Source: Trichinella spiralis (lineage: Eukaryota; Nematoda; Enoplea; Trichinellida; Trichinellidae). Taken from it: 64,000 nucleotides of DNA. Under the pieces are notes generated by a model. That model made no database searches and had not been told where the DNA came from. It saw only the letters and a list, made by a program, of their open reading frames with translations. Location: assembly GCA_000181795.3 (NCBI GenBank), contig CM012954.1:17207660-17271659 (forward strand). Direction: 5' to 3'. How positions within the stretch are numbered: the stretch's first letter is position 1; every line of letters begins with the position of its first letter. This document shows positions 5,290 to 62,940 of the stretch, in pieces. Made by a program: the position numbers and the translations under genes.

Positions 5290-6077
5290 GTTTTACAACT
5301 TTCATTTAATGATGTCAGTCTGCTCATGGAGTGGGCGTTTGCATTTATTTTGCTTTCCCGTTCTATATTCAACATAATTGTATGAGCTTAGCATGAGCGT
5401 CCATCTCAAAATTCAAGATGGGAACATGTTTGGAATTTGTCAATTTGGGTGGAAAAGACCTAGAAGCGGTTTGTGGTCTGTTGTTATTTTAAACGATCAG
5501 TCTGCCAGGTACTGATAGAATTTTTTGATTCCAAAACTGATCGCCCGTGCCTCCCTGTCTAACTGTGAGTAGATTTTTCACTTTTCTGCAAGATTCGCGA
5601 TCCATATGCTATCGGTGCTTTTATTTCATCTGACAGTTTATGTGCCAACACTGCAGTAACACAGAAAGCTAAAACAACACCAGCTAGTATCAATGGTAGG
5701 TCTGTTGAATAGCGTGTTAACACATTGTGTGACATGAGTAATTTCTCTGCCACCTCGAAAGATTTTACATGTTTCCCTCTCAATTCCCAGGGTACCTCTT
5801 TTTTCAACAGTTGGAATAGTGGTTTCAGCACTGCTGATTTGTTTGGTAAAAATCGTTCGTAAAAATCCAGCATTACAAGAAAAACCTCTAACTCTTTTCT
5901 GTTTCCTGGGGTTCTAAAATTCTTCATCCGCCTGATCTTCTCATTCGTTGGGTGTATTCCCTTTGAATCAATTTTAAATCCCAAAAATGACAGTTTCAAG
6001 TGTGAACTGCATTTTTCTTTGTTTAACCGCAGTCTGGTTTCCCTCAGTCGTTGCACAACTGCTCTCACTTGTTCCAA
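5290..6077 (-). pseudogene. reverse transcriptase thumb and RNase H remnant
   Basis: The frame at 5559-6077 contains LNKEKCSSHLKLSFLGFKID and FYERFLPNKSAVLKPLFQLL, the RT palm-to-thumb block, then the start of RNase H (APIAYGSRIL). After a break the minus strand continues with TTDHKPLLGLFHP and YNYVEYRTGKQNK (about 5290-5480), the end of RNase H. Frameshifts separate these pieces. Confidence 0.8.
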
Positions 6078-6089
6078 TGATAAGCCTCA

Positions 6090-8289: not shown

Positions 8290-9345
8290 CACGAAAATGC
8301 CCTAAGTTAGTACGCAAATCCAAAAATGATTATTTTCTATATCTTTCACAGTACCAGTTAATTTTCAGCTTCAACAGAATACAGCATATTTTAAAGTTTC
8401 AGCATTTAAACCATTTTAATGCATGTGTCTGTGCTGTTTAAAGTGAATGTTGTTTAAATTTACAATCTTTAGGCAAAATATTCATTTCAATTCAGCTTTA
8501 TCAGATATTTCATGTTGTTCTACCGGGACACTAAGCTTCTCTGAGTTAGCGATGGCATTTCTGAATGTACCTGTAGTTACTTCTACCTTAGAGGTCCAAA
8601 TTCTTATGCTGTTGATTGCTTTCGCTGCAATGATTGCATTTTTGGTTCTTTGCGGATGGTGTAGCAAACGAGAAAGAGATGGAAATGAACAAGCAGCTCC
8701 TCTAAGACAACCACAACCATTATATCCTTGCTATCCACCTGGGCAGGTGTATCAACAGCAAATGGGAGCACCGGGATTCATGCCTATGCCTGTTCCTAAT
8801 TACACTGCAGGACCACCTCCGACAATTCCGACACAATTTCCAGCTGCTGCACCAGCACCACCGCCTGCATCTGTAGAATCTGAAGATGGAGTTGATCCTG
8901 AGCTAGAAGGCATGGCTAAAGGTCAGTCTGCTAGAGATACAATGGCGGACGTCCCATCTATCAAAGACCATTTACCACCAAAGCGAAAACCATTCTGAAC
9001 GTTAGTCAGTTATTCTTTTTTCAGTGACGTTCACTTTTCTACTCACGTAAATTTCATTTCATTCTTTCACTATCACATGTGTGCTTATTTTGATTTTGTT
9101 ATGCAAGTTCAAAGTATCATTATTTTATAATGCATAAAAGTAAAATTAATTTTTATATGTGCAAGCGTTCTACTGCCATGTAATTTTTTATATGTTAATT
9201 GATGTTTTTTTATTTTCAAAAATTCTCTGATTTCATGTGAATCCTAGTAGATTATAACCTCACAGTACAATGGAACTAAATTTCATTTTCTTTCTTTTTA
9301 AAGCCTACTTATGATCTGCATATGATTGCATAACACAAGCCGATT
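8290..9345 (+). repeat. segmental duplication, copy 2 (partner 2070-3165)
   Basis: Direct copy of 2070-3165, placed immediately behind the Bicaudal-D fragment. It lacks the candidate signal-peptide exon found at 1928 before the first copy. Confidence 0.85.
8447..8998 (+). CDS. small single-pass membrane protein with Pro-rich tail (copy 2)
   Basis: Same 183-codon frame as 2237-2788, fully open, with about ten amino-acid changes: a Gly-to-Arg and an early Tyr-to-Cys change, changes in the tail, and Tyr-to-Phe at the last residue. The membrane span and the Pro-rich repeats are kept, and a few changes are silent. An intact frame with an intact span suggests either recent duplication or continued use. 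An internal start at 8552 (MAFLNV) is equally possible. Function unknown. Confidence 0.65.
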   Translation: MLFKFTIFRQNIHFNSALSDISCCSTGTLSFSELAMAFLNVPVVTSTLEVQILMLLIAFAAMIAFLVLCGWCSKRERDGNEQAAPLRQPQPLYPCYPPGQVYQQQMGAPGFMPMPVPNYTAGPPPTIPTQFPAAAPAPPPASVESEDGVDPELEGMAKGQSARDTMADVPSIKDHLPPKRKPF

Positions 9346-10735: not shown

Positions 10736-11971
10736 GAACGAAGAAACAAACGACCAAAGCGAAACAAATGCGAAACCCACGTTATATAAATTGCTTGCTA
10801 ACAGCAATATTTGTGATCACTGAACAGCAACCACATGACATGACAGTCATGTGCTTATCCATTTGACAGCGGATCACATACAACGAAAAGAATCACTGAC
10901 AGTCTTGTACTGAGACAACATGGATTTACTTCGATGTTCGAATGGATGCGTAATATGCAAATCAGAGTTGCTTAAAGCCCGCTTTCTTTCCTGGCACTTG
11001 TCATTCTTTTAACGTATAAGTAGTCTAACCGTTTTATATTGCATAGATTTTTTAAAAATCAAAATCACTTAATATTTCTGCACCGATTACGATTGTTGAT
11101 ATTCAAAAATTGAATAAATTAAGAGAAAAACAATTGTTGCACATTAATATTATTAATGATATGCATTGTAATCAGGGAAAGTAAAAGAGTTAAGGTGAGC
11201 TACGGAACTATGGAATAACATTTGAATAAAACGTATTTATCCATTGTTACGTTACAAATCTCATAATATAGTCAAAATATGGCCAAATATGGAGACAACA
11301 ATGTTTACCTTTTGTGCAGATTTTTCTTCGTATAACTTTTTTCTAAATTTAAAACAGTACATTAGTCTGAAACGCCTATATAAATTTTGTATTCAAACAT
11401 TTTGGCATTGTAGTTTTAATATCAAACATTTTTTTATAAAAAAGTTTCATCAAAAATAAAGCTGTGCTTTTTATGATATTAATCGCTTCAAATATAAAGG
11501 GTATTTAAATAAAAGTATTATGAAATTGTAAAAAATGGGTGAAAAATGAAAAATTAAATGAAAATAATAATTCGTACTTTAATTATAAATATAAAAATTG
11601 CTTTATTGAAATCAGCACTGGCGACGTCCGTTACATCAGAAGCGGAGTGGATAAAGCAGAACAAAAAAATACTCATGCAACCACTTGAATTCTGGAAGTA
11701 GAGTTCAAATGCAGCCACCCTACGCATCACAACTTTTCAAACAGAATTCATATATTAAATAGCAAAAATCACATATTAATTATAAAATGGAATGTATCTA
11801 TTTTGATGCTGCAGATAAACTTAAATATCCATAGAAAAATTAATTTTTTCATAGATATTTCTTTTTTAATATATTGTATTCAAACAAATTTATTAAAAAT
11901 CAATGATAAAAGCAAGAACAATAATATTTTGTTCTAATTATAAATATGAAAATTATTTCATAAAATTCGGC

Positions 11972-12002
11972 AGTGGAGACGTCCGCTTGTTCGTATTCCA
12001 CT
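11972..12002 (+). repeat. A-module hairpin, copy 1
   Basis: Stem AGTGGAG-ACG / CGT-A-TTCCACT round the loop TCCGCTTGTT; one G-T pair, tolerated as G-U in RNA of this sense. Followed by the conserved 40 bases ending CTCTTACAAAGTGAAC and then variable DNA. Confidence 0.75.
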
Positions 12003-13062
12003 GATGGTTGATATAGTGGTTTGTGCACTCTTACAAAGTGAACAAACTCGCTGCACCACAGAACAAAAAAGAAAGAGAACAGCGAAGTTTCTTATTGATT
12101 TACGTGGCAAGTAGTAGCCATATGAAGCATTCTCTGACTTTATTTACGGCCCTCAGTAACTAATAAAGTCCGTTTTAATTGCTGAAAACTATTCTCATTT
12201 TTCTAATTGTTACATTTTTTCAAAATGCTGTATTTTAATTTTGCAAATAATAATCTTTTAATTAAGAAGCAATTAAAGTGATTCACTTTAAGTGGGATGG
12301 TTCTAGATAAATTTTATTTGGTAATTTGAGTGCTAAGATATTGGAATGGTGTTTCCATTATTTTTTCCGCAATTTCTCGAACGTTAAACACTAAAACACG
12401 GTACGGATATGTTTGCAATAGTTGTATGATCCTTTCTGATAGATTCAAGTGATTTTTGTAAGGAAAAAATGTTCTCTGAAAATATTGAAATTTTGTGGGC
12501 TTTTCTGTTTTGTGAAAAGCTGCGAAAAGCCTTTTCAGCCGAAGCAAAGCCCATACAGAACATTATCCAAAACTGCTTTTTATTAATAAAGTTTGCACTT
12601 CTGTTCCAATGCTCATCATTTATATCAAAGGAAAAAAAAGATAATGTTGTAACTTCTTGTTGACTTTTATATACACGCTTTATTCATTTGCTTGTTATAT
12701 TTTCCAAAATTATTAAATCTGTTATGATTTACTTCATTCAACACCTTTTAATGATATGAAATCAATGCCAAGATCCCAATCATCCAGTAACAATGTCTTT
12801 CGATCAAAATGCGATCACACCCCGTTTTTACAACTTTTCAAATAGAATTCATCCAAAAAATAGCAAAAGAAAATCATATACATAAATAATGAAATATTTT
12901 TATTTTCATGTTGGGAGTAAATTTAAATTTTCATTATCAAATTAATTTTTTGATATGTGATTTCTTCTCTCATATGTTTCTAATAATTATCAACAGTAAA
13001 TATCATGAGCAATAATATTTTGCTTTAATTATGAATATGAAAATTATTTCACTCCACTTGGC

Positions 13063-13093
13063 AGTGGAAACGTCCGCTTGTTCGTATTCCACT
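13063..13093 (+). repeat. A-module hairpin, copy 2
   Basis: Consensus form: AGTGGAAACG, loop TCCGCTTGTT, CGTATTCCACT. Preceded by C module (12815-13062), followed by the hypervariable segment 13134-13287. Confidence 0.8.
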
Positions 13094-16000
13094 GGTGGTT
13101 GACTTGTTGGTTGGTGCGCTCTTACAAGGTGTACCGAACGTTGCCAAGATCACGTGTATGCATTGTCCCCAATGCATACTTTCTGAAATTTGTTAAGCAA
13201 CTGAATATCTCCCGCTTGAAAATCGAGGGATATTTCCCGCCACAGATCAGGCAGATGGCTCACTAGTGTTTCATCACTTTGATCAATTTTTTTTTTATTT
13301 TGCATCAACAAAGAGATTATGTAAATTACATTTTTATGGTCTGGTAAATTTTCTTTGTCAAAAGGAGAAGCCAGAGTCTTTAGATTTTTGTGAAAAGCTT
13401 TTCGATATAAATTCCATTTATGTGGGACATTTTTGAATTTTCAAATCTGAAATTCAGACATTCGAGGGCGTGTTTTGTCTGGGTCATTTTGTTGTTGTGG
13501 CGTTCAGCGAGACAGCGCTTTTAAATTGTCCTCATTGGGTGAATTTAATAATGCTTCTCAATTCTTCTTTCAAAGCATTTGAAATTATTCTATTCCAATA
13601 ATGCGATGCATACGCCGGATTATCCGTTCATTGCACGTGAATTTTTATTGTTTATATTGCATCAGCATTCCATTGGAATTCATAGTCAAAAATAATTTCC
13701 AATGCTATTTTCTAGCGCTCCATTATGCAAATAAGGGTCGATTGAAAATTGTCTTATCATCATTAATGGTGCGCAGGTATGTTCGATTTAGGTGGCAACT
13801 GGTAGCGTCGTAAAAAGTTCTCTGAATTTATTCACTGCGTTTAGTAACTAATGAACTCGGTATTTTTATTGTTGTAAATAATACATTTTTCTGAAAGCTA
13901 CTTGAAACTCTCTATATATAATCTTTATGCTAACGTTCATTAAGACAAGCAGAACAAGTGAAGATAAGAAGAATATGCGGTTCCGCCGTGGGTCCCCCAT
14001 TCTGTAAGTCTGGGCTTGGGATACTTCAAAAGAGTGATGTTATCCCATAGTTTAATTTAGTTAACGACAAACCTGCATAACTGAGTTTTGAATTATTGCA
14101 GTACTTGGTCATTCACGCAGCAAAATTTATGTATCCAACTTTTCATTTTCGTTCATTTTCTAATTTTTGATTTCCTTTTTTCACATTTTACATTTAGTTT
14201 TGTTTTCAATACTTTCCAAAGTAGATTGTTTTCATTTTAATTTTTCAAACCCATTCATTCAAACTTGACTTGTTCCAATCTATGTTGAGCAACACTGAGG
14301 GCTTGTCTGCTATATTAGGTCCCAAAAGGTGCATATAAATGGGCAGCAATTTATTCAGCTAACACCTATTTTGCAACATCTCAAATGGAAAATGCAGAAC
14401 AGCTAATATCATAAATTAATAATAAAAGGCAATCGTTTTATTTTTATGAAACGTACGAATTTAAATTATATTAAAATTCATTTTTTGGCAAATATTTGTT
14501 TATCAAAAATAATCTTTACTTCATTTGATTGTTTTTCTTTTGTTTCAGTGTTTTAAGAAAACAGTCATTCATAAATTGAAAGAATTTATAGGAATCACAG
14601 TCTTAAATTGTTCAAAATGCTAGAATGGTCAACATCCATTCATTTGATTTATTTCTTTCGTTACATCATCCACATCATTACGTTGCTATTTTATGTTTGC
14701 ATATGTGCATCATCAATTACAAACTGTGCAAAACTTTACCACAGTAATTATTACATTATTCGTAAACAATAAATATCATTGAATTGCTGAAAAAAAGTCA
14801 AATTAGATTATGTATTATGCATATATTAAAAGTTCAGGCTTGTGGTGAGCTATAGCTGCAATGTAAACGAACTTCAACTTCTTTACCAGAATTTTCATGC
14901 AAATTTTTGATCGTCGACTGGACGTTAGTTTAATAATCATAATCATCAGAAACTTTTCAATTATATGCAGTTGAAGGTTGAAATTATTAACATTTCAATT
15001 TTTTCATTTTCTGCAGTTATCCTGGTGTAACTGTAGAATACGTTCAATTTTTCAATTTACACTTTACACTTGCAAATGGCGTTGAATTTCCATGTGAACT
15101 CAACTGCTAGCATCACCAAGCCGAGTGATTTCTATTATGCATGTAAGAAAAATCATTGTTTTCTATACCATAAGTTATTTAACTTTATTATTACTTAATA
15201 TTAATTTTTTATTCTACATCATCAAAGACTTTTTCTCCGAATAATTTTGTTTGTCAGAATGCGCAGCCATATACTTTTTATTTTTTGCAATGTTTTATTT
15301 ATATAGGTCGTTTTTGAAATTTGAAATTCAAGTTAAGACATGCGGAGGCGTGTTTTGGCTAAGGCAATGTTTTTGTTATGGCGTATTTTTGTCAGATTGT
15401 TTATATTTTGACGTAATTTCAAATTTCAAGGTCATTTTTGAATTTTCAAATAAATGCCATTGATTGTTTAATTTGTCACTCAGTCTGAATTGCTTCTTCA
15501 AATTATTACTTTTTCTCTCTTCTTACAACAAGCCAGCATTTAATATAAAATTATTATGCATTTTATTTCTTGTATTTATATTATTTTTTAATATTTAAAA
15601 TATATTTCGTAATAAAGATGAAATTAGTGTTTCCGCAATGAGAATTGCTTTTACGTTTGGCAGTGCTACAATCAAATTTTCTTCTAAACAGAGTGTATCA
15701 ATGAAAAATATGCACTAGTGATATTTATCAGCAGAAATAAATCAAATAAAAATTTGCATGCTAAGTCGTTCGCTTTACTGACTTATTGGAAGTAATTTTA
15801 GTTTGAGACTGTCCGTGGAGGGAAGCACAGCGTTTCGATTGGCAAATTGACTGAAGAGCAACGTTGAACGCCAAACGCTAGATTTACTTTCTATTCATTC
15901 TTATTTTTTGGAATAATTTCTGAAAAATAATTTTTCAGTCAAAACCAAACAGCATGAACATCAACGATGAGAAGATGATGCATTTTGCGGTAAGTGGCAG

Positions 16001-16476
16001 TTTTTTCACTTTTATGTCATAATCACTTAACAATGCAATTGAGAATCGATATTGAGCATAATTTTTCAATATATTCTCCATGAATTCTCTATATGAAATG
16101 AAAGCTGATTTAATAAACGTCAAATTTCCTAATAATTAAGTTCGATTAAATTCACCCCGTACGCACTGTTTATCTATTATTAGAATGTGGTCTTTTGAAA
16201 ATCATCACTTCACTAGCTAACAAACATGCACGTTCAATTTTCCGTAAGATGTTGCAGTTTTATTATTTTCACACTTTTATTTATAAAAAAGGTTTTATCA
16301 AAAACAAAACTGTGCTTATATGATATTAATCATTTCAATATATATAAACGGTAAGTATTTAAATAAAAATATAATAAAATTCTAAACAAACATAATGTTT
16401 AAAATAAAAAAATGAATGGCAATAATAATTTGTATACTTCATTATAAATATAAAAAAAAGTTTTATTCCACTTGGC

Positions 16477-16507
16477 GATGGAGACGTCCGCTCGTTCGTA
16501 GTCCACT
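16477..16507 (+). repeat. A-module hairpin, copy 3 (degenerate)
   Basis: GATGGAGACG, loop TCCGCTCGTT, CGTAGTCCACT. The outer stem is weakened but the position between C module and variable DNA is kept. Confidence 0.6.
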
Positions 16508-16786
16508 GTGGTTGATGCGGTGATTCTTGTACCTTCATCAGTAATTGAAGAATCAAACAGCTCGAGCTTCTCCGCCTATCTATCCGTCTATCCGTAGTCA
16601 AAAATTAACCTAAAGAATACAAAGTAATGGAGGAAAGCAAGCAGCCCCTCACCGTTTTACAACTTTTTAAATAAACTACATACAGAAAATAGCTAACGTC
16701 CTATGCTAATAATAGAATGCAATTTTTTATTTTCATGCTGCACGAAAATTTAAATTTTGGTATTAAAAAAATATATATTTCCTTTT

Positions 16787-17134
16787 TCAAGATGTCGTAT
16801 TCACATAAATAAAATTAAAAATAAAACGTAAATAACAATAATAATAATAATGTTTAACTGCTATTATAAATATAATAATTATTTTATAATACTTGGCAGT
16901 GGAAACGTCCACTTGTTCGTATTCCACTGGAGGTTGATTTGGTGGTTTGTGCACTCTTACAAAGTGAACAATACGCGATGCCATGTGATATCTCTTTTGA
17001 TTCCATCTCATACGGATGACTTCTCCATTGATGGTCCAGTGCTTTTGCAACAAGTCGGATGAAACAACGTATGACCATCTGTAATATGCAAGGATGGTAA
17101 CATAATTGCTGTGAACGTCCAACACCAATGGCAT
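16787..17134 (-). CDS. 115-codon open frame across V and A modules (unassigned)
   Basis: A minus-strand frame from ATG at 17134 runs through the variable segment (MPLVLDVHSNYVTILAYYRW and more) into the conserved A module (VHKPPNQPPVEYEQVDVST) and on into C. Frames through the A module of other copies give the same ending, but their V parts are unrelated or carry stops. No family recognised. It may be a terminal exon of a repeat-borne gene or chance; listed because it is the longest open V-A frame. Confidence 0.25.
   Translation of the reverse strand: MPLVLDVHSNYVTILAYYRWSYVVSSDLLQKHWTINGEVIRMRWNQKRYHMASRIVHFVRVHKPPNQPPVEYEQVDVSTAKYYKIIIIFIIAVKHYYYYCYLRFIFNFIYVNTTS
16898..16928 (+). repeat. 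A-module hairpin, copy 4
   Basis: AGTGGAAACG, loop TCCACTTGTT (one loop change), CGTATTCCACT. Followed by about 190 bases of variable DNA. Confidence 0.8.
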
Positions 17135-18422: not shown

Positions 18423-18977
18423 CTTAGGAGCGGAAAAACCAAACCTGAATGATGTGATTTCAGACAATCTAAAGCACTGATATACAAAATCTCTTGAAAA
18501 CTGAAACAAAATAAAAACAGCAAATATATGCACACATGAGACAAAAGTTGGTGTTGCCGCGATGGTCGAATGAAGGAAAGAATGAGAAAATAAAGTGTGA
18601 TGGTCGACTTCAGGCGAAATTTTCACCGCATTGCTTGTTTCCACCATTAGACAAAATACGGCTTTGTTCTATGAGTTTGATAAATATCGTGCATATGCCT
18701 CTGTCAAAAATTATTCACGTCTCTCGTCACATCAGGTGAATTTCGAAAGGCGATTTTAGTGCAAAGGGAAATTATAAATTGCGCACAGCTGACGCGGTTA
18801 CGCTAAAACTAAAATGACCAGAAACAATAGGCGGTTAAAATTTAGCTGAAGTGGACCAAGCTGAATTTCAAACACCTCTGCAGGAATAAAAATTCCTACT
18901 TCTCACGCCCCCCCTGGAACCTTCCTACGCCCCCCTAGGGGGGCGCGCCCCCCTGGTTGAGAAACACTGTTGTAGAC

Positions 18978-21480: not shown

Positions 21481-21507
21481 TAGAAAAAATGTTTTATTTC
21501 AATCGGC

Positions 21508-21538
21508 AGTGGAGACGTCCGCATGTTCGTACTCCACT
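21508..21538 (+). repeat. A-module hairpin, copy 5 (compensatory change)
   Basis: AGTGGAGACG, loop TCCGCATGTT, CGTACTCCACT. The usual A-T pair of the stem is here G-C, with both sides changed. Confidence 0.8.
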
Positions 21539-22041
21539 GATGGTTGATGTGTTGGTTAGGGTATCGCCAGTACCAAGAAGGGCGTGTAATGGCAGGGGAA
21601 CGTTTGCAAACAATGGTGCCACCGCCCTTCGACTGGTATGGTTCATTTGGAAAGCTACACTAACAGTGACGATCAATGGGCACTCCACCTTTTTACAATT
21701 TTTCAGATAAAGTTCATACAGAAAATTGCAAAAATCATATTTGTAAATGATAAAGTGAAATATTTTTATTTTCATGCTGCAGTCCAGCGGGCGCTTTACG
21801 TTTTTTAACTTTTCAGAAAAGCTCACACAGAACAACAAAAATCCTATGCTAATAATAATAGAATGCAGTATTTTTATTTTATACTGCACGTAAATTTAAA
21901 TTTTGATAACAAAATTCATTTTTTGATAAATATTTCATTTTTCAAAACGCTATATTCAAACAAAGAGATTTAAAATAAAAATATGAATGGCAGTAATAAT
22001 AGTATTTTGGCTTCATATTAAATATAAAAATCACAAATTGC

Positions 22042-22085
22042 AGTGGAAACTTTTGCTTGTTCTTTATTATTTTATCGGTGGTTGA
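22042..22085 (+). repeat. degenerate A module
   Basis: Keeps the left arm AGTGGAAAC and the following GGTTGATTTG but has lost the right arm. Confidence 0.5.
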
Positions 22086-22810
22086 TTTGCTGGCATGCGC
22101 CCACTCGTATGCAGAGCAATACCAAATTGCCAACATATTTGGTACTGATGCACCAAAGTGTAAAGGCTTGTCTGCTTTGCTACGTGAACATGGGCCAGAA
22201 AAGCCAAATGCATCATCACAATGATGGCATTTTTCACAACATCCCAAATAGGTGAATTCCATCAGACGGATTGTATCGATGGTAAATGCGAATTTAAATT
22301 TTGATTTTTTTTATAAAATTCATTTTTTGACATATATTTGCTTTTTAAAGTTATATTTCACTTTACTTGATTGTTTTTCTTTTTGTTTCAGTGTACTGAG
22401 AAAGGGATCGTCCATAAACTGAAAGAATCCAAAAAATTTCCGGTCCAGATTTGTTGAAAATGCCAAAATACTCAGCATCCACTGTTTTCATTTATTATAT
22501 CTATATTTCGTCTACTTTGTTACATTGCTATTTTCAAATTTGCATATGTTGTATGGCATTTTCATCAATAGTTGCGCATATAAATCAGGTTTGAACAGCA
22601 AATGTTACAACTGCTGCCAGCATTCAGAAGCTTTGAAATGCTCAAATTATCATCAGTTTCCTCCTGTCGTTTTCATTTCGATTATAAAATTGATTTTTTG
22701 ATAAACATTTCTCTTCAAAATCTGTTGTATTCAAAAATATGGATTCAAATATAATAGTAATAATGTGCATCGGTTATTATAAATAGAATAATTATTTCAT
22801 ATTAATTGGC

Positions 22811-30971: not shown

Positions 30972-31911
30972 TTTTATTCCTGTAAAAGTGATATTAAATG
31001 AAAAATTTTGATGCTTCAAACACATAGTAAAAGATGCAACAAATATGAAATTGAATTTTCAATTATATCCAATTAATTATTTTCAATTAAATGATAGTTA
31101 TTTACAAAATAAGTATCGAATGCTTTGAAAAAAACGAAACCAAAATAGAAAAATATGATGCCTTTCAGCAATTGAAAACTGACTTCAGTAGTTACTTAAC
31201 GCCACTAATAAAATCAGAGAATCTTCATATGGCTGCCACTTGCCAGAAACCAATACAAGATTACTGAGAGTAAGGAAATTTTTAAAGGACCCTGATTTGC
31301 ATATTGTAGCGTTAGAAATGGGTTTTAGTGCATTTGAAATTATTCTCAAAGATGAATGCTAACCTGGCGCTGACGTTATGGAAATTATAGACATTCATGT
31401 ACAAAAACTTACTGATCCAGCAGGTAGGGACGGTTACATTAAACTTATCTGAATCTGATTTCAGATGTCTTGTTAAATTTATCCAATGAAGACTTTTAGG
31501 AAATTCAGAAATGAACTTGACTGGCGGAGGTCACCAATTAAAGATTCGGTTAAAACATAAATTGTGGGACTGAACGCTAACACAAATAATTAACTTAGAC
31601 AAAACCCGCCCCTGCACGTCTGAATTTGAGATTTGAAAATTCAAAAATGACCCACATAAATGGAACTCATGGCGAGAAGCTTTTCACGAAAATGTAAAGA
31701 CTCTGATTTTTCGCTTTGACAAACAAAATTAGCCAAATCAAAAATGCAATTTACAAAGTGTTTCTAATTACGTAAAATAAAAACAATATAATAAGTAAAA
31801 GTGCAAATAACTTTTGGGAAAAGGAGAAGCAGTTCTAGATGGTGCTGCATACCTCAGAGTGCCTACATCTGCGCACATTGTAAGAGTGCACAAATGGCCA
31901 CAACAACCACC

Positions 31912-31942
31912 AGTGGAATACGAACGAGCGAACGTTTCCACT
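31912..31942 (-). repeat. A-module hairpin, copy 7
   Basis: Minus strand: AGTGGAAACG, loop TTCGCTCGTT, CGTATTCCACT. Stem intact. Confidence 0.8.
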
Positions 31943-32439
31943 GCCAAGTAGAATGAAATAATTTTCGTATTTATAATAAGAGCAAAATATTATTATTCGT
32001 TACATTCATCTTGATTTTTAATAAATTTGTTAGAATACAGCATTTTGAAAAAACAAACATCATGTCAAGAAGTTAATCTCATAATGAAAATTTCAATTTA
32101 CGTCTAGCGTGAAAAGAAGAATATTTTATTCTATCTTTTATGTATATATATATAATTTTTGCTATTTTCTCTATGAAATTTATTTGAAATGTTGCAAAGC
32201 GTAGATTTCCTGCAGCCTTCAGTGCTTTTCGTGTCTACGGATGACTGGTCCTCAAATCTTAATGCCATGGATGAATGCACGTCATATGGAAGCAAATTGT
32301 CATATGGCGATTACCAGTCAAAAATTGTCTTCAAAATATGTGCGAGAGCATGTTAGGGAGGAATTTGACGATGATAATGGACAGGCATTAGATGAGTAAC
32401 CGGTGACAAATAAAGCGGGTATCAAAGGAAAGGAAATTT

Positions 32440-32850: not shown

Positions 32851-33530
32851 GGGAAGCTTCAGGGGAGCTGGACGTTTCGTTACAATATTACGATCGTCTT
32901 TGAAAGACAAAACGATTGATACGCTTTGGTCACTACGTTCATATCTTATGCAAAGCAGAAATAAAAGGAGCAACTCACTTAGCAATTAAATGAATTTAAT
33001 AAATGGAAATATTCAATTAATTGGATCAATTAAAAAAATGGAATGCCTTCCAGCAATTTAAAATAGACTTCAGAGGGCAAAAGTCACCAATTAAAAATTC
33101 AGGTAAAATGCAAACTACCGGGCTGTAAGCCAACACAAAAAAATTTGTTCAGACAAAACGAGCCTACAGATGTCAAAATTTGAAAATTCAAAATTAAAAA
33201 ATAACGCACATAAATGGAACTCAGGAAAAAAGCTTTTCACATAAATGTAAAGACTTTTGCTTATCGCTTTCACAAACAAAAGTAAACAAACAAAAAATGT
33301 AATATATCAAATATTTCAGATGATGTAAAATTTCAAAAATAATAATGCGGTGATAAAATAAACTTAAATAACATGCTGTATAGAATATTTTGGTTGGAAT
33401 CCAATGCGATTCAGTGATGAAAAAAACTTTGGAGGATATCACATTACAGCATTGCAGCAACGCAAATGCATACTTCAGAATTCTGGTTGGTTCACTTTGT
33501 AAGAGTGTACAAACCACCATATCAACCATC

Positions 33531-33561
33531 AGTGGAATACGAACAAGCGGACGTTTCCACT
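33531..33561 (-). repeat. A-module hairpin, copy 8
   Basis: Minus strand: AGTGGAAACG, loop TCCGCTTGTT, CGTATTCCACT, the exact consensus. Confidence 0.8.
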
Positions 33562-34712
33562 GCCAATTGAAAAAAAATAATTTCCATATTTATAATTAAA
33601 GTAAAGTTTTGTTTTTCATAAAAGATTTTCATGGAAAAATAGTATAAATAATAAAATTAAAGGGTAGAATTGTTCATAAACAAAATTACTATACGCGTTC
33701 CTGACTAATGTATTGCTTTAAATTAAATGCAAATTGTGTGAAAAAATATTAACAAAAAAAGAAAATACTGTTTTCTCCATATCAGATCTTACTTTGACTA
33801 TATTATGAAATTTGCAACATGAAAATGAATAAATACATTTTATTCAAATACTATTCAGTAGTTTCTTAGCTCAGCTTAACTCTCTTATTTTCGCGCATTA
33901 CTCTACATGTAATGAATAATATTAATTTGCGACAATTAAATTTCACTTAATTTATTCAATTTTTGAATATAAAAAAATGTAAATGGTGCAGAAATATTAA
34001 TTGATTTCAGTAATTCGCTTTTAATAATAATTGGTTTATAAGATATTTGTCTTCTTTTTAAAAATATAAATACATGAACAAACTGCTGTTGATCTTCAAC
34101 AAAAAATTTTACACAGAACAGATCTATTCTTAATAATGCTTAATATAATCATGTTCAATGATTATAAATTAGTGGACATAATTGAAATAATAGCAGTTCA
34201 TGTAAAGTAACCGGATGATCTAGCGAGTGCATTGCATTAAAAAAGAATAATGACGTGTAAAAAATTGAGATACCGTGCCAAATTCAACCAATGAAAACAA
34301 TTTGAAAATTCAAAAATGACCTTGATATTTAAAATTCAGTCAAAATATAAATTACCGGGCAGAAAACGCCATAACAAAAAATTCACTTAGACAAAACACG
34401 CCCCCGCATGTCTGAATTTGAGATTTGAAAATTCAAAAATGACCCACATAAATGGAACTCATGACAAAAACTTTTCACAAAAATGTAAAGACTCTGGTTT
34501 TTCGCTTTGACAAACAAAATTAGCAAATCAAAAATGTAATTTATGAACTTCTTTTAATTATGTAAAATTTAAAAAAATGCAAATGCCAAGTGTGAAACGA
34601 AAGCACTTATCAGAAGTATGTGCTTTTTGGCGTACTAGGAATTCTGCTAGCATTCCTCTTTGGCTACATCTGCGCGCATTGTAAGAGTGCACAAATGGCC
34701 ACATCAACCACC

Positions 34713-34743
34713 AGTGGAATACGAACAAGCGGACGTTTCCACC
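34713..34743 (-). repeat. A-module hairpin, copy 9
   Basis: Minus strand: GGTGGAAACG, loop TCCGCTTGTT, CGTATTCCACT. The outermost A-T pair is G-T, a wobble if transcribed in this sense. Confidence 0.75.
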
Positions 34744-34949
34744 CTCGAGTGAAATGAACTAAGTTCCATATTTATAATTAAAGCAAAGTATTATTATTCT
34801 TGATTTTATTTTTGATTTTTAATAAATTTATCAGAATACAGCATATTAAAAAAACTAATATCATGTCAAGAAATTTTGTAATGAAAATTTCAATTTACGT
34901 CTAGCATGAAAATAAAAATATTTCATTTTATCTTTTATGTATGTTACGC

Positions 34950-36773: not shown

Positions 36774-37022
36774 TCACCAATGCCCACCCATGCCGTCGTT
36801 TATTTGGGGCTGGGCTGTCGGCAGGATTCCTGGGACGACTAAGCTCTTCACTACCATCACAGTCACACGTCCCATCCAACGGCACCACCCCATTCCGCTG
36901 ATGCTCATTCGTCGACCGTCCACAAGCAGTATTGCCCCCTCCTCACTCTTCAAGGGCTCTTCACCGGAGGCGACATGCCAGAGTAGGGGCTTTCGCCGCA
37001 GGGGGGCACCGGGATGCGTCAA
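36774..37022 (-). pseudogene. retropepsin-like fragment
   Basis: Minus frame with VDGRRMSISG, RVTVMVVKSLVVPGIL, resembling the part of gypsy proteases after the active site (flap, then 'G...V.V...V.d.IlG'). The D-S/T-G is not visible. Weak match, supported by its place upstream of the RT. Confidence 0.4.
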
Positions 37023-37075
37023 CTGAAATTTGATCCCCTACTGTCTTGCTGACAGACCCCGGCTTGCGGCCCTTC

Positions 37076-37302
37076 TGTAAAGTGATTACGATCTCAACAA
37101 CCTGAACATCGATAACCCACAGTAGGAGAGGTAATTTTTGGCATAAAGTGACATGGAGTCGACGTGCTAAAGAGTTCGGTATTGCTGTGAGTGTACCCCT
37201 TGCGTGTGTGTTATCGCTTTATATAGTTATTCCCAACTGAATAAAAGTGTTGTTTCGTTAAATAAAAAGATTGGCTTGTTGTTAAAAGGCGAAAACGTTA
37301 CA
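37076..37302. mobile_element. solo LTR, 227 bp, with proven empty site
   Basis: Starts TGTAA and ends TTACA, with TATATAG (about 37219) and AATAAAA (about 37239) inside. It splits gypsy sequence that is contiguous at 10652-10660. Flanks are CTTC (37072-37075) and CTGC (37303-37306), a possible 4-bp target duplication with one change. The copy at 41723-41949 is the same insertion carried along by the tandem duplication. Confidence 0.75.
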
Positions 37303-38340
37303 CTGCTATAAATCAGCGGCTCGTTACGCGGGGGTTTGATCCGCTGCCCCAACGGATCATTAGAGAGCGGCGTGCCCTCGGATCAATGCCGTACAATGGT
37401 TAATTGGGTACAGACGTGTCCGGTCATGAAGGTCTGTCGACAGAAGCCACCCGCGGTCCGCGCCAGCGGCTTCGCGTCTTCCTCAGTCGGATCAGCAATG
37501 AGCAACGCCGCCGTATAGCAAAGGCTGTTACATCAGGTACAATTCTGCCAGCCGTTCGCTGGTCAGATAATCAACAGTGGACTGTATGACCGGTGCCTGA
37601 CTTCGATCCTCTCTGGACGACGTCGTCAGGATTCTCGGGTTGTTCTTCACGATGCGCCTTCACGATACGCACGACGGGTACTGCTACTGCTCTCGCTTTC
37701 TACACACACACGTCCCAACTCCTCTTCTTGATCTCGTTCTCCTGTTGTATCAGCGGCGCTCCACATGGCTCTAGATAGAGTCCGGGGGTCAGCGGGCCGG
37801 CGGGTAGTTCAACAGAACTGCCAATGGGTAACTTGCTCGCCGCGGGGGCACTCGATATCTGAGGCGCCGATCTAAATCACCGTCGGCTTCCAGTAAGCCG
37901 CCCGGGTTCAGATCCTTTCATCTTCGATTGGTCCGCAGCGCCGGTGGCCAATTGACGATTCCGTTACGACGGCTGCTCCTACAAGGTCATCGGTTAACCT
38001 GCCGCCGGCGTTGATTGCACAAGCAGCCACTGTCCCGCGAACAATGGCTGATCCAGGGCACCGTATGGGGTCTCATCTGACCCCGATCCCGTGTCGCCAG
38101 ACGCGGCGATAGCGATCTATCCGACGTTGCGCGTGCATTGTTCTCGCCCAAGTGCGCATTTCATGAGCCCCGGCTCATGGGTGTGTCACCGACGAGGTCG
38201 GTGCCGTTACCTCCGGAACAGTTTAAAGTGATTCGTTTTATTTTAAATGTAACGGACTTTCCGTCACATCAAGCGGGTCGGCCTCCGCCTTGCTGTTCTC
38301 GACCGGGTCATCACCGTCCGAGTTGACCTTACGGCGCCTG

Positions 38341-40131
38341 CACTTTTGGAACAAGACATGTGGGGTGATTTATTTATAAAACAAACACCAAACAATCATT
38401 TCAAATGTTTATTACACCGACAACCACCATAATAAATGACAACGCGATCGATCGCTAACCAAAACCGCACATCACCAACGATCAATGATTGCCACGTGCC
38501 ACCGTACTACAGTACACTTTCAACGATGGTCAGGTCCAAATGTGCCTGCAGGGGTAGCCGAGTGCAATGGTTTGGTGCTTACAAGATCAGCTCAGTTTTT
38601 CTTCCTCTTCTTCCTTTAACTCTGGAATACAGCAGGCGTCATGGGCTAGCCGGTACTACCGCATAACCATTTGAAAGATGCGTGGTGGAATGAATATTTC
38701 TTTTGAAATTGCAAAATTATTTTATTTGCTTTTGATATATTTACGCTGATTTCATTTTTTAAATGATTCATCGCTTTTTCATAGAATGTTGGAAGTCCTT
38801 AATGCATTAAAAGTGGGAATAAAAAAGGTATGGCTGTATTTGTGATATCTTTTACATTTATTTTAATTAAACGTGATTTTTAATTCCGTTCGTAAATAAG
38901 AATTTCTTTTACATTACCTTCTTTGTGCATTAATTGTCTGATTTTACTGCTTGAATATCACAAATTTCATACAGTATACGATTGGTTAATTGTAATATTG
39001 AGGAGGTGCAGTTATGAACGTTGCTGCCAACTTCTAGTGATATGTGTTTCTTATGTTTTTGATTTATAATTTTTGCAAAACATATTGTTTTGGGAGCTTT
39101 TGTATTTAACTGCTGAAACATATATTTTTCCTTGATGTGCCTATTTGTGATCATTTTGCATGTTTGTTGTTTTTATTGATCATTTTCTGTGCTTGCTCTA
39201 ACTAGCTGTCGGTAATATCAATCTTCGACCGGCAAGTAAATACGCTCTTTTGGCAGTCATTGTTTGCCAAGGCGATTTGTCGCCTTTGGTTCACATTCAG
39301 CATTGATTTATTTGTTAATCACTTCCGCCCGGCGATCCTGTTCTGGACTTTTTGAATAATTGATAAAGGTGAGAAGCTTTATTTTATTGTATTTTATTTC
39401 ACTTTTTGAATTTTTATTTTGTATTAGTTTGAACGGATTAGAAAATAAGCTAGGACGGCAGACAGTCGTCGCTTTGTCAAAATAATTGAATTAGGTTTGA
39501 TCTGTTTAATTAAGTATGGTAATCTTTAATTTTTTGAAGCGTTCAAGCTGTTGATTTGTGTATAGATAAAAATTCTTATATTATTATATAAATTACGTTA
39601 CAGAAAGGTGTTTTTAAGTGCATGGTGAGGTGGTGTTTGAAAAGATGCTTTTTTAATTTCAAAATTTTCCTGACATGTAATGTAATGTCGCTTTTGAAAT
39701 GATTGGAACGTCAGAACCGACGTATGTCGTGATGCGAGAAAATTTTTTAATCCATCATTGTCTGCATTTTTAATACGCACGAGCGGAAATGCTGCGCATA
39801 TTTTTCATTTCGCTTTATTGAAAAGCCGGTTGGTTATACTACCTATTTGCCGGAGGAAGTTCCTCTTTTGTGTCTTTTATTCCATGTTGCATGAAAATTG
39901 TTTTTTGATTGGTAAAATTGATCGTTTGGGTATTGTTATTAGGAGTGTAATTTTGAATTAAAAAATAGCATTTGATGTGGTAAATATTTTTCTTTCTTTT
40001 TTTTGCAAACAATATTTATTCGATGCGGATAATAGCAAGTAGTAGTATGTTTTTTGCGTTTTATGTATAATTTTATTATTGCAAAAATAGATGGATGTAT
40101 TTGTGTTTGAAAAGGACCCAATTTTAGATTG

Positions 40132-40171
<40 letters not shown>

Positions 40172-41343
40172 TGCAAGAATTAAGTGATTTTAAACAGCAA
40201 TACGGAGTGTGATTGATCATTTTGTTGACCTATTTTATGCGATGGAGAAATTTACATTAAGCTGTAAATTTTAGTGCATAATTTTCATCGCTATAGTGGA
40301 AAGTAATTGTCGATAAATTCTGGGTGGGCGAAAACTTTTGCCGAAAATTTGCAGATCTTATGAAGAAACAAGTTTGATGATCTCGTTTTGTTTGAAATAA
40401 AATATGATTTATTGAAAGCAAAATTTTTTTCATTTAGTACAAATTGATACTGTTTATGCTTGTATGAATTTCGAATTGCACAATTTCAATTTTGTTGTTG
40501 AAAAATGCTTTTTTTTTAATTAAGTGATCATCAATTAAATCACGTATATCAAAATGAATGAAGAATAGTATCAATTGTAAGTTATTTTTATTTTTTAATA
40601 TATATATATATATATCTTTTTTTTGAAATTAATTATTATCGACAGAGGCATCGTTTTGAAAGCATCAGTTAGTGGATGATTGGAATGCATGAATGGCGAT
40701 TGTTTCGTATTGATGAATGAACAACTGAGCTGACGATTTACGTTTTTATGCTCTTAAATAATATTCTTCTTATGCTATTCCAATTCGTTTAATTGATTGC
40801 CGATGCTTTGGTGAACAGTTTTCAGAGTAGTGGCGTGTGCGGTTGCCTGGCTGTTTGTGTCGTTGAAGTGATGATGTTTTTGTTCTTGTGGTTGCAATTT
40901 GCTTTCTCATGCTTGCTCTTCTTTTCCCCAACGATTTCCTTAGCTGGCAACCTATCTCTCTATAATTATGCTTACTATCCTGCCTGCTAGTGAGATTGGT
41001 TATTTGGATGCTTTTTTCCTACGAAACTGACTCCTGTGCTATGTTTTACTACTCCTCATCCCTGATCGCTCCTATTCAGAAAATTTATGATCTTAAATTA
41101 TCTATAATTCATTGAAGAATATGACTATTATTTTGCATAATTACAACTGAACATAGAATTCACCTATTAATATTAATATTGTTGTGACTTAATCGACTCC
41201 AGATTAGGATAATGTAAGATATTTGCAAAAATGATAGCATAACTTATTTAAACTGTTTGCTTTTGTCGTTCATATTCGTTTGTTGTTTTCATCTCCAACT
41301 GAATTTCTGTGACGATTTTCACTTGCATTATCCATGAGAGAAA
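38341..41343. other. AT-rich DNA, mostly within duplication Y
   Basis: No gene recognised. At about 39240-39370 a more GC-balanced stretch contains the hairpin CCAAGGCGATTTGTCGCCTTT and ends AATTGATAAAG before GTGAGAAG, a good splice donor; it could be a non-coding first exon. AT dinucleotide runs lie at 40134-40169 and near 40600. Confidence 0.4.
40134..40169 (+). repeat. (AT)18 microsatellite
   Basis: The duplicate copy at 44793-44810 has (AT)9. Confidence 0.95.
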
Positions 41344-41353
41344 NNNNNNNNNN
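41344..41353. other. assembly gap (10 N)
   Basis: Directly before the second copy of duplication Y. Confidence 0.99.
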
Positions 41354-57614: not shown

Positions 57615-58717
57615 GTACCAAACCGATTTATCGTTTTTACGTAAAAATATGGTCGAATTACCGCCAGATCTCAATCTTACAAGCTCTAAGAATTTATTCA
57701 GAAGGAAAACGAATTCAGCGATGAGTTTTAGCCAAGGACGCTACACGTGTACTATTCATTTGACGTATAACAAGTCCAACGGCATTATATTTCATTATTT
57801 TTCGGAAAATCCAAATCACCTAATATTTCTGCATCGATTGCGATTTTTGATATTCAAAAATTGAATAAATTAAGAGAAATTCAATTGTTGCAAATTAATA
57901 TTATTAATGATATGCTATGTAATCAGGGAAAATAGAACAGTCATACTGAGCTATAAAATAACATTTGAATAAAATGTATTTATCCATTGTCACGTTACAA
58001 ATCTCATAATATAGTCAAAATATGGCCAAATATGGAGACAACAATGTTTCCCTTTTGTGCAGATTTTTCTTCGTATAACTTTTTTCTAAATTTAAAACTG
58101 TACATTAGTCTGAAACGCCTATATAAATTTTGTATTCAAACATTTTAACATTGTAGTTTTAACATTTCACACTTATTTTCATAAAAAAGTTTCATCAAAA
58201 ATAAAGCTGTGCTTTTTATGATATTAATCATTTCAAATATAAAGGGCATTTAAATAAAAGTTTAATAAAATTGTAAAAAATGGGTGAAAAATGAAAAATT
58301 AAATGAAAATAATAATTCGAACTCTTAATTATAAATGTAAAAATTGTTTTATTGGAATCAGCGCTGGCGACGTCCGTTACATCAGAAGCGAAGTGGATAA
58401 AGCAGAACAAAAAAATACTCATGCAACTACTTGAATTCTGGAAGTAGAGTTCAAATGCAGCCTCCCTACGCATTACAACTTTTCAAACAGAATACATATA
58501 ATAAATAGCAAAAATCACATATTAATTATAAAATGGAATGTACCTATTTTGATGCTGCAGATAAACTTAAATATCCATAGAAAAATTAATTCTTTCATAG
58601 ATATTTCTTTTTTAATATATTGTATTCAAACAAATTTATTAAAAATCAATGATAAAAGCAAGAACAATAATATTTTGTTCTAATTATAAATATGAAAATT
58701 ATTTCATAAAATTCGGC

Positions 58718-58748
58718 AGTGGAAACGTCCGCTTGTTCGTATTCCACT
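58718..58748 (+). repeat. A-module hairpin, copy 10
   Basis: AGTGGAAACG, loop TCCGCTTGTT, CGTATTCCACT. Equivalent by position to 11972-12002 but with the A-T form of the variable pair. Confidence 0.8.
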
Positions 58749-59788
58749 GATGGTTGATATAGTGGTTTGTGCACTCTTACAAAGTGAACAAACTGGCTGG
58801 CACTCCAGAATTAGCATATGATGGAATGAATACTCTTTTTATTGATTTATGTGGCAAGTAGTAGCCATATGAAGCATTCTCTGACTTTATTTACGGCCCT
58901 CAGTAACTAATAAAGTCCGTTTTAATTGCTGAAAACTATTCTCATTTTTCTAATTGTTACATTTTTTCAAAATGCTGTATTTTAATTTTGCAAATAATAA
59001 TCTTTTAATTAAGAAGCAATTAAAGTGATTCAATTTAAGCGGGATGGTTCTAGATAAATTTTACTTGGTAATTTGAGTGCTAAGATATTGGAATGGTGTT
59101 TCCATTATTTTTTCCGCAATTTCTCGAACGTTAAACACTAAAACACGGTACGGATATGTTTGCAATAGTTGTATGATCCTTTCTGATAGATTCAAGTGAT
59201 TTTTGTAAGGAAAAAATGTTCTCTAAAAATATTGAAATTTTGTGGGATTTTCTGTTTTGTGAAAAGCTGCGAAAAGCCTTTTCAGCCGAAGCAAAGCCCA
59301 TGCAGAACATTATCCAAAACTGCTTTTTATTAATAAAGTTTGCTCTTCTGTTCCAATGCTCATCATTTATATCAAAGGAAAAAAAAGATAATGTTGTAAC
59401 TTCTTGTTGACTTTTACATACACGCTTTATTCATTTAATATAAATCTGTTATGATTTACTTCATTCAACACCTTTTAATGATATGAAATCAATGCCAAGA
59501 TCCCAATCATCTAGTGACAATGTCTTTCGATCAAAATGCGATCACTCCCCGTTTTTACAACTTTTCAAATAGAATTCATCCAAAAAATAGCAAAGAAAAT
59601 CATATACATAAATAATGAAATATTTTTATTTTCATGTTGCGAGTAAATTTAAATTTTCATTATCAAATTAATTTTTTGATACGTGATTTCTTCTTTCATA
59701 TGTTTCTAATAATTATCAACAGTAAATATCATGAGCAATAATATTTTGCTTTAATTGTGAATATGAAAATTATTTCACTCCACTTGGC

Positions 59789-59819
59789 AGTGGAAACGTC
59801 CGCATGTTCGTATTCCACT
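59789..59819 (+). repeat. A-module hairpin, copy 11
   Basis: AGTGGAAACG, loop TCCGCATGTT, CGTATTCCACT. Equivalent by position to 13063-13093. Confidence 0.8.
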
Positions 59820-62800
59820 GGTGGTTGATTTGATGGTTGGTGCACTCTTACAAGGTGTACTGAACGTTGCAGCGAGCATGTTTATGAATTGCCATCGATG
59901 CATATCTTCCGAATTTTTGAAAGCAGTTGAATGTCTCTCGCTTGAAAATCGAGGGATATTTCCTGCCACATTTCATGCAGATGCCTCACTCCTATTTTAT
60001 CACCTTGATCAAATTTTTTTTAATTTTGCATCAACAAGGAGATTAGGTAAATTACATTTTTATGGGCTGGTAAATTTTCTTTGTCAAAAGGAGAAGCCAG
60101 AGTTTTTAGATTTTTGTGAAAAGCTTTTCGATATAAATTCCATTTATGTGGGACATTTTTGAATTTTCAAATCTGAAATTCAGACATTCGAGGGCGTGTT
60201 TTGTCTGGGTCATTTTGTTGTTGTGGCGTTCAGCGAGACAGCGCTTTTAAATTGTCCTCATTGGGTGAATTTAATAATGCTTCTCAATTCTTCTTTCAAA
60301 GCATTTGAAATTATTCTATTCCAATAATGCGATGCATACGCCGGATTATCCGTTCATTGCACGTGAATTTTTATTGTTTATATTGCATCAGCATTCCATT
60401 GGAATTCATAGTCAAAAATAATTTCCAATGCTATTTTCTAGCGCTCCATTATGCAAATAAGGGTCGATTGAAAATTGCCTTATCATCATTAATGGTGCGC
60501 AGGTATGTTCGATTTAGGTGGCAACTGGTAGCGTCGTAAAAAGTTCTCTGAATTTATTCACTGCGTTTAGTAACTAATGAACTCGGTATTTTTATTGTTG
60601 AAAATAATACATTTTTGAGAAAGCTACTGGAAACTCTCTATACATAATCTTTATGCTAACGTTCATTAAGACAAGCAGAACAAGTGAAGACAAGAAGAAT
60701 ATGCGGTTCCGCCGTGGGTCCCCCATTCTGTAAGTCTGGGCTTGGGATACTTCAAAAGAGTGATGTTATCCCATAGTTTAATTTAGTTAACGACAAACCT
60801 GCATAACTGAGTTTTGAATTATTGCAGTACTTGGTCATTCACGCAGCAAAATTTATGTATCCAACTTTTCATTTTCGTTCATTTTCTAATTTTTGATTTC
60901 CTTTTTTCACATTTTACATTTAGTTTTGTTTTCAATACTTTCCAAAGTAGATTCTTTTCATTTTTATTTTTCAAACCCATTCATTCAAACTTGACTTGTT
61001 CCAATCTATGTTGAGCAACACTGAGGGCTTGTCTGCTATATTAGGTCCCAAAAGGTGCATATAAATGGGTAGCAATTTATTCAGCTAACACCTATTTTGC
61101 AACATCCCAAATGGAAAATGCAGAACAGCTAATATCATAAATTAATAATAAAAGGCAATCGTTTTATTTTTATGAAACGTACGAATTTAAATTATATTAA
61201 AATTCATTTTTTGGCAAATATTTGTTTATCAAAAATAATCTTTACTTCATTTGATTGTTTTTCTTTTGTTTCAGTGTTTTAAGAAAACTGTCATTCATAA
61301 ATTGAAAGAATTTATAGGAATCACAGTCTTAAATTGTTCAAAATGCTAGAATGGTCAACATCCATTCATTTGATTTATTTCTTTCGTTACATCATCCACA
61401 TCATTACGTTGCTATTTTATGTTTGCATATGTGCATCATCAATTAGAAACTGTGCAAAACTTTACCACAGTAATTATTACATTATTTGTAAACAATAAAT
61501 ATCATTGAATTGCTGAAAAAAAGTCAAATTAGATTATGTATTATGCATATATTAAAAGTTCAGGCTTGTGGTGAGCTATAGCTGCAAAGCAAACGAACAT
61601 CAACTTCTTTACCAGAATTTTTATGCAAATTTTTGATCGTCGACTGGACGTTAGTTTAATAATCATAATCATCAGAAACTTTTCAATTATATGCAGTTGA
61701 AGGTTGAAATTATTAACATTTCAATTTTTTCATTTTCTGCAGTTATCCTGGTGTAACTGTAGAATACGTTCAATTTTTCAATGTACACTTTACACTTGCA
61801 AATGGCGTTGAATTTCCATGTGAACTAAACTGATCTAGCATCACCAAGCCGAGTGATTTCTATTATGCATGTAAGAAAAATCATTGTTTTCTATACCATA
61901 AATTATTAAACTTTATTATCACTTAATATTAGAGAATTTTTTTCCGGATAATTTTGTTTGTCAGAATGCGCAGCCATATACTTTTTATTTTTTGCAGTAA
62001 ATTTTATTTATGTAGGTCATTTTTGAAATTTCGAATCCCAAGTTAAGACATGCGGAGGCGTGTTTTGGCTAAGGCAATGTTTTTGTTATGGCGTTTTTTT
62101 GTCAGATAGTTTATATTTTGACGTAATTTCAAATTTCAAGGTCATTTTTGAATTTTCAAATAACTGTCATTCGTATAATTTGACATTTTATTTGAATTCT
62201 TTCCCCAAAGCATCACTTTTTCTGACCTTTTGACAGTCAGCATATAATATTAAATGAGCATGCATTTTATTTCTTATATTCACATTATTTCTAGTATTTA
62301 GAATATGCTTGGTAATAAAGATCAAATGATAGTTTCTGTAATAAGAAGTATTTATATGTTCGGCAAAGCTACAATTAAATTTTCTTTTCAAACAGAATGC
62401 ATTAGTTAAGTAAATAAACGCAATGAAAACTATGTACTAGCCACATTTATCAGCAGAAATGAATAAAATAAAAATTTGCATGCGACGTCGTTCGCTTTAT
62501 TGACATATTGGAAATAATCTTAGTTTGAGGCCGTCCGTGGATACAAGCACTGCGTTTGGATTGGAAAATTAACTGAAGACCAATATCAAATGCCAAATAC
62601 TAGATTTGATTTTTATTCATTATTATTTTTTGGAATAATTTCTGAAAAATAATATTTCAATGAACATCCAAACAGTATGAACATCAACAATGAGAAGATG
62701 ATGCATTTTGCGGTAAGTAGCAGTTTTTCATTTTTAAGTCGTAATCACTTAACAGTGCAATTCAGAATCGATATCGCGCATAATTTCTCAATATATTCTC

Positions 62801-62940
62801 TCTGAATTCTCAGCTTGAGATGATATGTGACTTAATAAACGCAAAATTTCCGTACAATTAAATTTGATTAAAACAACGTGTACTCATTGATTATCTATTA
62901 TTGAAATATGTTCTTTTGAAAATCACCATTGCAGTAGCTA

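Follow-up and report, generated by a model that had tools for sequence, protein, structure and literature searches.

The divergent segment V, which interrupts an otherwise well-preserved duplication in this Trichinella spiralis DNA, is best explained as the copy-specific part of a multicopy gene family resembling structured RNA genes, a part that would be spared when duplication and gene conversion even out its flanks (probability roughly 0.55). The window, that is the whole 64-kb stretch analyzed here, corresponds to C2:17207660-17271659 in a genome of 53.1 Mb on 14 contigs.

To compare the two copies of block X within the window, we aligned X1 (11059-16200) with X2 (57812-62940) and scored identity per 50 columns. 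Nearly all bins across 12.1-15.2 kb contained 46-50 identical columns out of 50, and within 13105-13304 the score dropped to 42, 35, 44 and 42. Further low bins were found at the first V of the block (12055, 28/50) and at gapped places (11159, 12655-12754 and 15203), and the copies became broadly less alike from 15450 onward. The dip that the original prediction had placed at 13134-13287 is therefore real in the identity plot: 34 of 154 sites differ from the X2 partner (22%), with zero gaps, versus 35 of 1839 sites (1.9%) in the flanks, which were counted over 11600-12045, 12097-13102 and 13313-13720. The divergence was rightly called high, the figure of about a quarter of the positions being slightly above the measured one. 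Its limits, drawn from just behind a hairpin module to the B module, enclose a segment that lies inside the dip, and the dip itself is slightly wider (13103-13312). A second dip, absent from the original prediction, covers the other hairpin module of block X, with 22 of 51 sites differing between X1 and X2 at 12046-12096. The divergent blocks are as follows.

13103..13312, forward strand: divergent block V2 of X1, V type A, with 34 sites grouping X2 and X5 against X1, X3 and X4; contains 13134-13287
59829..60038, forward strand: the same block in X2, V type B, its V identical to that of X5; coordinates obtained through the X1/X2 alignment offset
12046..12096, forward strand: V1 of X1, unlike the other four copies, with 15 sites setting X1 against the rest

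A genome search for further copies, as originally suggested, found the block part around V five times. The window contains X1 and X2; X3 lies at C2:17.078 Mb, X4 lies at 17.396 Mb and X5, which matches mainly in the left half of block X, at 16.832 Mb. The 34 sites within 13103-13312 divide these copies into V type A (X1, X3 and X4) and V type B (X2 and X5). X2 and X5 show 0 differences over the 154 sites of V and are identical along 181 bases, compared with 52 differing sites among 1833 (2.8%) in their flanks, and each pair among X1, X3 and X4 differs at 2 sites over V. The description of V as hypervariable is thus wrong for block X, where V exists as two types only. An assembly error is also an unlikely source of the V-A/V-B difference, judging from the contig, because each type recurs at separate places, V-A at three and V-B at two.

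V1 (12046-12096) groups the copies otherwise, separating X1 from the other four at 15 of 21 two-state sites. The flanks of block X display conflicting two-versus-three groupings (X1X4, X2X3, X3X5, X1X2, X1X5, X2X5, X3X4 and X1X3), some of them at single sites, and therefore imply that copies have recombined or undergone gene conversion, or that single sites have mutated repeatedly. Gene conversion from other copies, one of the causes originally suggested for the dip, is accordingly supported as a process that evens the flanks up to V. It found no support as an import into V: the genome search, which short or diverged donors can escape, returned no outside donor for V-A or V-B, and searches with five V queries returned only block copies, sister copies or the query itself. 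We rejected the import of a whole V from another locus on these five queries, with the proviso that diverged donors are missed by such a search, as was the sister V of the unit at 21504. A partial import into V1 of X1 is possible, since its right half aligns at 83.7% over 49 bases to a unit at C2:16936976.

The hairpin module belongs to a family that is confined to a single contig. Allowing up to 3 mismatches, the genome contains its core 78 times, of which 42 are forward and 36 reverse, and a control pattern 0 times. All 78 cores are on C2, in local clusters between 10.86 and 17.40 Mb. We examined 60 unit copies with a core of up to 6 mismatches, comprising 50 of the 78 and 10 more diverged ones. 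Full flanks were available for 55 of the 60, which entered the pair comparisons; 36 of these 55, with V less than 85% alike, served as representatives for folding and for the TATA, T-run and GC counts, and 35 of the 55, with a CTCTTACAA-like loop and including a few near relatives, were used for the covariation alignment and for a covariance model, R1. In the window, R1 identified 12 members in their own orientation and four weaker opposite-strand matches lying over units, as expected for an inverted repeat. Apart from one member found by the covariance model only, the units below were identified by both core search and covariance model.

11968..12061, forward strand: unit 1 of X1 (hairpins 1 and 2)
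13059..13152, forward strand: unit 2 of X1 (hairpins 1 and 2)
58714..58807, forward strand: unit 1 of X2
59785..59878, forward strand: unit 2 of X2
16473..16566, forward strand: family unit
16894..16987, forward strand: family unit
21504..21597, forward strand: family unit with the other hairpin-2 type
22038..22125, forward strand: diverged family unit, covariance model only, 24.9 bits
22807..22900, forward strand: family unit
31854..31946, reverse strand: family unit
33473..33565, reverse strand: family unit
34655..34747, reverse strand: family unit

The window holds several other features beside these units. Inverted arms of 361 bases, 100% complementary, are situated about 18 kb apart at 1-361 and 18565-18925, and a run of N at 17.7-18.5 kb, marking absent or withheld sequence, falls between their inner side and the second unit cluster. 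Two equal-length, near-identical frames of 183 residues (2237-2788 and 8447-8998) probably represent a duplicated membrane protein gene, and a 175-residue frame on the reverse strand (5559-6086) resembles, by eye, a piece of a retroelement reverse transcriptase. At 36804-45523 lies a recent tandem duplication of about 4.65 kb, with copies 96-100% alike in the stretches listed; it is adjoined by a GC-rich stretch (52% at 36-38 kb). A 295-residue frame matches one Trichinella nativa protein with 97% identity over 94% of the query.

The dip is a property of the family and recurs in other members. We compared V with its flanks in 20 recent-duplicate pairs, which were picked after viewing the pair table and are non-independent, some copies appearing in two pairs. 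V divergence reached 15-31% versus 1.5-8.5% in the flanks in eight of them (ratios of 3.4 to 17, each p <= 1.1e-4), and one pair was intermediate (8.0% versus 4.9%, p 0.30). The remaining 11 pairs share nearly the same V, which pooled to 5 of 967 differing sites versus 67 of 4449 in the flanks (p 0.012). Pooling the eight divergent pairs gave a mismatch of 1-11% up to +60, 20-32% at +79 to +138, 5-16% further on to +208, and 0-9% thereafter. V is thus either very different or conserved like its surroundings, and therefore a steady high mutation rate cannot explain both.

Flank sharing across the family locates a junction at V. Among all 1485 pairs of the 55 copies, which are non-independent, we called a flank shared at 93% identity or more over at least 130 bases. 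Both flanks were shared in 32 pairs, with V the same in 14, related in 14 and unaligned or partial in 4. The 3' flank alone was shared in 30 pairs, with V unaligned or partial in 27 (the 5' flank being still 86-92% alike in 4 of these). Of the other three, two had a related V and one had the same V, with a 5' flank of 92.5%, just under the cut. The 5' flank alone was shared in 9 pairs; V was related in 3 of them and unaligned or partial in the other 6, and the 3' flank was partly alike in 5. Apart from the 92.5% pair, the same V was always accompanied by both shared flanks, and V moving without its flanks was not seen among the 1485 pairs. This pattern indicates that the 5' and 3' parts assort with a junction at V. 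A telling example is the unit at C2:16936976, whose 3' flank matches that of the 58.7-kb unit in the window without a difference over 185 bases, while V is alignable over 22 bases only and the 5' flank over 24 only.

Individual units share a common architecture, shown here for the second unit of X1.

13031..13037, forward strand: TATA-like box, 29 nt before GGCAG
13062..13094, forward strand: constant hairpin 1, paired in 98.9% of the cells of 34 distinct rows
13110..13138, forward strand: hairpin 2, its 3' arm extending into the variable part, with 7 of 11 pairs changed on both sides
13287..13296, forward strand: ten-T run at the end of V, as seen in the sequence
13286..13504, forward strand: 3' flank (the B module), a dispersed repeat that genome matches also place outside hairpin units

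In 31 of the 36 representatives the constant GGCAG follows the start of the TATA-like box by 29 nt; the distance is 30 nt in 2, and 3 have no such box. Across the same 36, GC rises from 16% in the 20 bases before GGCAG to 60% in the 20 after, stays at 37-45% through +60 to +140 and is about 24% at +220, and V has a mean GC of 0.43 versus 0.21 upstream and 0.27 downstream. Only 4 runs of at least four T lie in the first 120 nt of these units. Such runs are common afterwards, the first one having a median position of +149; their scarcity inside V (+60 to +120; 4 observed versus about 7 expected) is not significant, and V type B carries five T inside V. In the V-A copy at 17077897, the ten-T run is the first run of at least four T behind the hairpin. 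The 3' flank repeat matches three places on contig C3 as well as loci L019 and L020, both of which are without a hairpin unit.

Covariation supports the pairing of hairpin 2, for which 7 of 11 pairs have changes on both sides; this holds for the 35 of the 55 copies whose hairpin-2 region was aligned. Both helices together contain 20 cells with double-sided changes, versus 7.4 (sd 2.4) in shuffles, which lose relatedness and of which 0 of 500 reach 20, and versus 0-7 cells in slid controls, which keep it. Helix 2 is paired in 85.6% of cells in the 35 copies, and the cells of both helices include 55 G-U, 10 A-C and 48 other mispairs. The excess of G-U over A-C points to the unit's own strand as that of the RNA, as far as base pairing can tell. 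The fold does not extend as a strong domain into V: mean z is about -0.4 to -0.9, which is mild, and the 3' flank at +250 to +290 folds at least as well; we rejected V as a strongly folded domain. We also rejected a protein-coding V, since the V-A/V-B changes fall by position modulo 3 as 13, 12 and 9 with no codon signature, and V-A has stops in all three forward frames.

None of the known RNA families we searched accounts for the unit. Rfam 15 covariance models gave 0 matches at gathering score in the 64-kb window, and 11700-14000 gave two weak matches only, both below the cut-off, so that a known Rfam RNA was rejected as the identity of the unit. A spliced leader RNA of a known kind was likewise rejected for want of a match to known spliced leader models, a set that does not include Trichinella's own and that a lineage-specific spliced leader could escape. 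Inspection by eye revealed nothing clear as a promoter element in common with U2. A literature search returned no title describing the hairpin unit family, and it is in the sense of that search only that we call the family undescribed. Twelve Trichinella assemblies are listed as annotated with Rfam (PMC13334664), an annotation that would miss this family because no Rfam family matches here.

Small-RNA production is our best lead for a function of the units. Table 2 of PMC3212509 lists 20 novel miRNAs of T. spiralis, out of 213 reported, and one of them, tsp-novel-103 (22 nt), occurs exactly in V of two sister units, C2:17091624 and C2:17369355; the genome has no other match to it, even allowing 2 mismatches. 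The table gives its abundance as 821 TPM in adults, 12 in newborn larvae and 623 in muscle larvae. By simple arithmetic, 78 V of about 100 bases make up 0.015% of the genome, and the chance of one in 20 miRNAs falling in V is therefore about 0.3%. Both sites (L007:1446-1467, reverse strand, and L070:3539-3560, forward strand) are antisense to the unit. Folding the antisense strand of the locus places the small RNA in the 5' arm, the arm given for it in PMC3212509, with a z of -2.19 and 28 of 1000 shuffles as good; the sense strand has a z of -2.01. The modelled precursor fold is thus not exceptional, and no common precursor fold was seen among 19 units folded on both strands. The other 19 miRNAs of Table 2 have no match in sequence covering 50 of the 78 cores, and the 15 exosomal novel miRNAs listed in Table 7 of PMC10304724 have 0 matches in the same sequence.

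We propose that a unit runs from a TATA-like box through a constant 5' hairpin and a second hairpin to V and an AT-rich 3' flank, and that segmental duplication and gene conversion between units would hold the 5' and 3' parts alike. Conversion tracts would end at V for lack of alignable sequence between the V of different units, and perhaps also through selection against change in V. Left out of conversion, V would therefore retain older and larger differences among units, while units with the same V type remain alike. The constant part may act as promoter and common 5' domain, with V giving each RNA its identity; we predict that the units are transcribed and that the RNA ends near a T-run. 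Several findings count against this reading: the sole small RNA found is antisense to the unit, V folds only mildly, helix 2 is paired in only 85.6% of cells, T-runs are not significantly scarce inside V, and the unshared flank is still partly alike in the 4 and 5 pairs named above. Extending the proposal, we tentatively suggest, as a possibility short of an even chance, that these units, at least 78 in number, make up a constant-variable RNA gene family so far undescribed, in which promoter and 5' hairpins are common to all and each V is private and spared by concerted evolution, a clustered specificity repertoire of small-RNA precursors or guide-like RNAs in a lineage reported to be without piRNAs. 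V may be only spared or may also be driven apart by selection; the data fit either, and diversifying selection on a product of V, as originally suggested, is compatible with them.

A rather unlikely alternative gives selection the leading role: bursts of positive selection, through an arms race or a division of labour, would have shaped V after recent block duplications, with the flanks alike simply because of recency. It draws on the little-diverged kilobases around V, with 46-50 of 50 identical columns in nearly all bins of 13.3-15.2 kb, on the gap-free substitutions that make up the X1/X2 changes in V, and on V of the same type diverging less than the flanks (5/967 versus 67/4449), which therefore indicates constraint on V in some copies. 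The conflicting flank groupings of block X would nevertheless need recombination or conversion anyway, as would near-identical 3' flanks beside an unalignable V and unlike 5' flanks. An improbable reading takes the units for a non-autonomous mobile element or satellite whose copies are decaying, and V for a functionless, unconstrained filler. The many locally clustered copies and the dispersed 3' flank repeat, present also on contig C3, would suit such decay, but the location of all 78 hairpin cores on one contig speaks against it, as do the covariation, the strand bias and the GC of V, and a V that is far more or no more divergent than its flanks, unlike the outcome of neutral decay. A dispersed mobile element, with copies over the chromosomes, was rejected on the same distribution, only the 3' flank repeat being dispersed. 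Steady mutation driven by the hairpin in the DNA behind it, the simple form of the targeted mutation once suggested, would fit a dip whose start, in all 8 divergent pairs pooled, lies directly behind the hairpins, but it is very improbable, and steady hypermutation of V is contradicted by the 11 of 20 pairs in which V is no more divergent than the flanks and by X2 and X5, identical over V (0/154) despite 2.8% flank divergence (52/1833).

Viewed as a family of copy-specific RNA-like genes, the units recall several known systems. The system in PMC11031087, in the features drawn from that account, is similar in its many related units in local clusters and in a sequence that varies in the possibly processed part, and the published 22-nt small RNA maps to V of two units here. 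It differs in that the small RNA here is antisense to the unit with a fold z of -2.2, and other V are without a common precursor fold.

The units have in common with RNA polymerase III type 3 genes of the U6 kind a TATA-like box placed about 29 nt ahead of their GC-rich start, and the only U6 match in this genome carries TATATA 28 nt upstream of its model start. A TATA box at a fixed distance is present in the units as in that class and fits polymerase II too. The first run of at least four T, at a median of +149, may be a further likeness, though T-runs are common in the AT-rich flank anyway. The units differ from this class in that no proximal sequence element was identified in them and in that V-B has five T inside V.

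Some gene families have conserved ends and a variable middle, set apart by limits to gene conversion. The mosaic, alike flanks and private middle of our units resemble them, with the difference that the middle here is RNA-like and not protein. If the units are RNA genes, they would offer a clear natural case in which both gene ends are evened between copies and the middle is spared. Nematode 21U/piRNA loci have an upstream motif in common, a variable product and many clustered loci. The units share with them the common upstream element and the variable product at clustered loci, and differ in being much longer, GC-rich and equipped with hairpins. PMC4323106 reports that clade I nematodes, to which T. 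spiralis belongs, have no PRG-1/PIWI, and a large private RNA repertoire is therefore worth testing there. If the units are RNA genes, they would constitute a large copy-specific RNA repertoire in an animal lineage reported to be without piRNAs.
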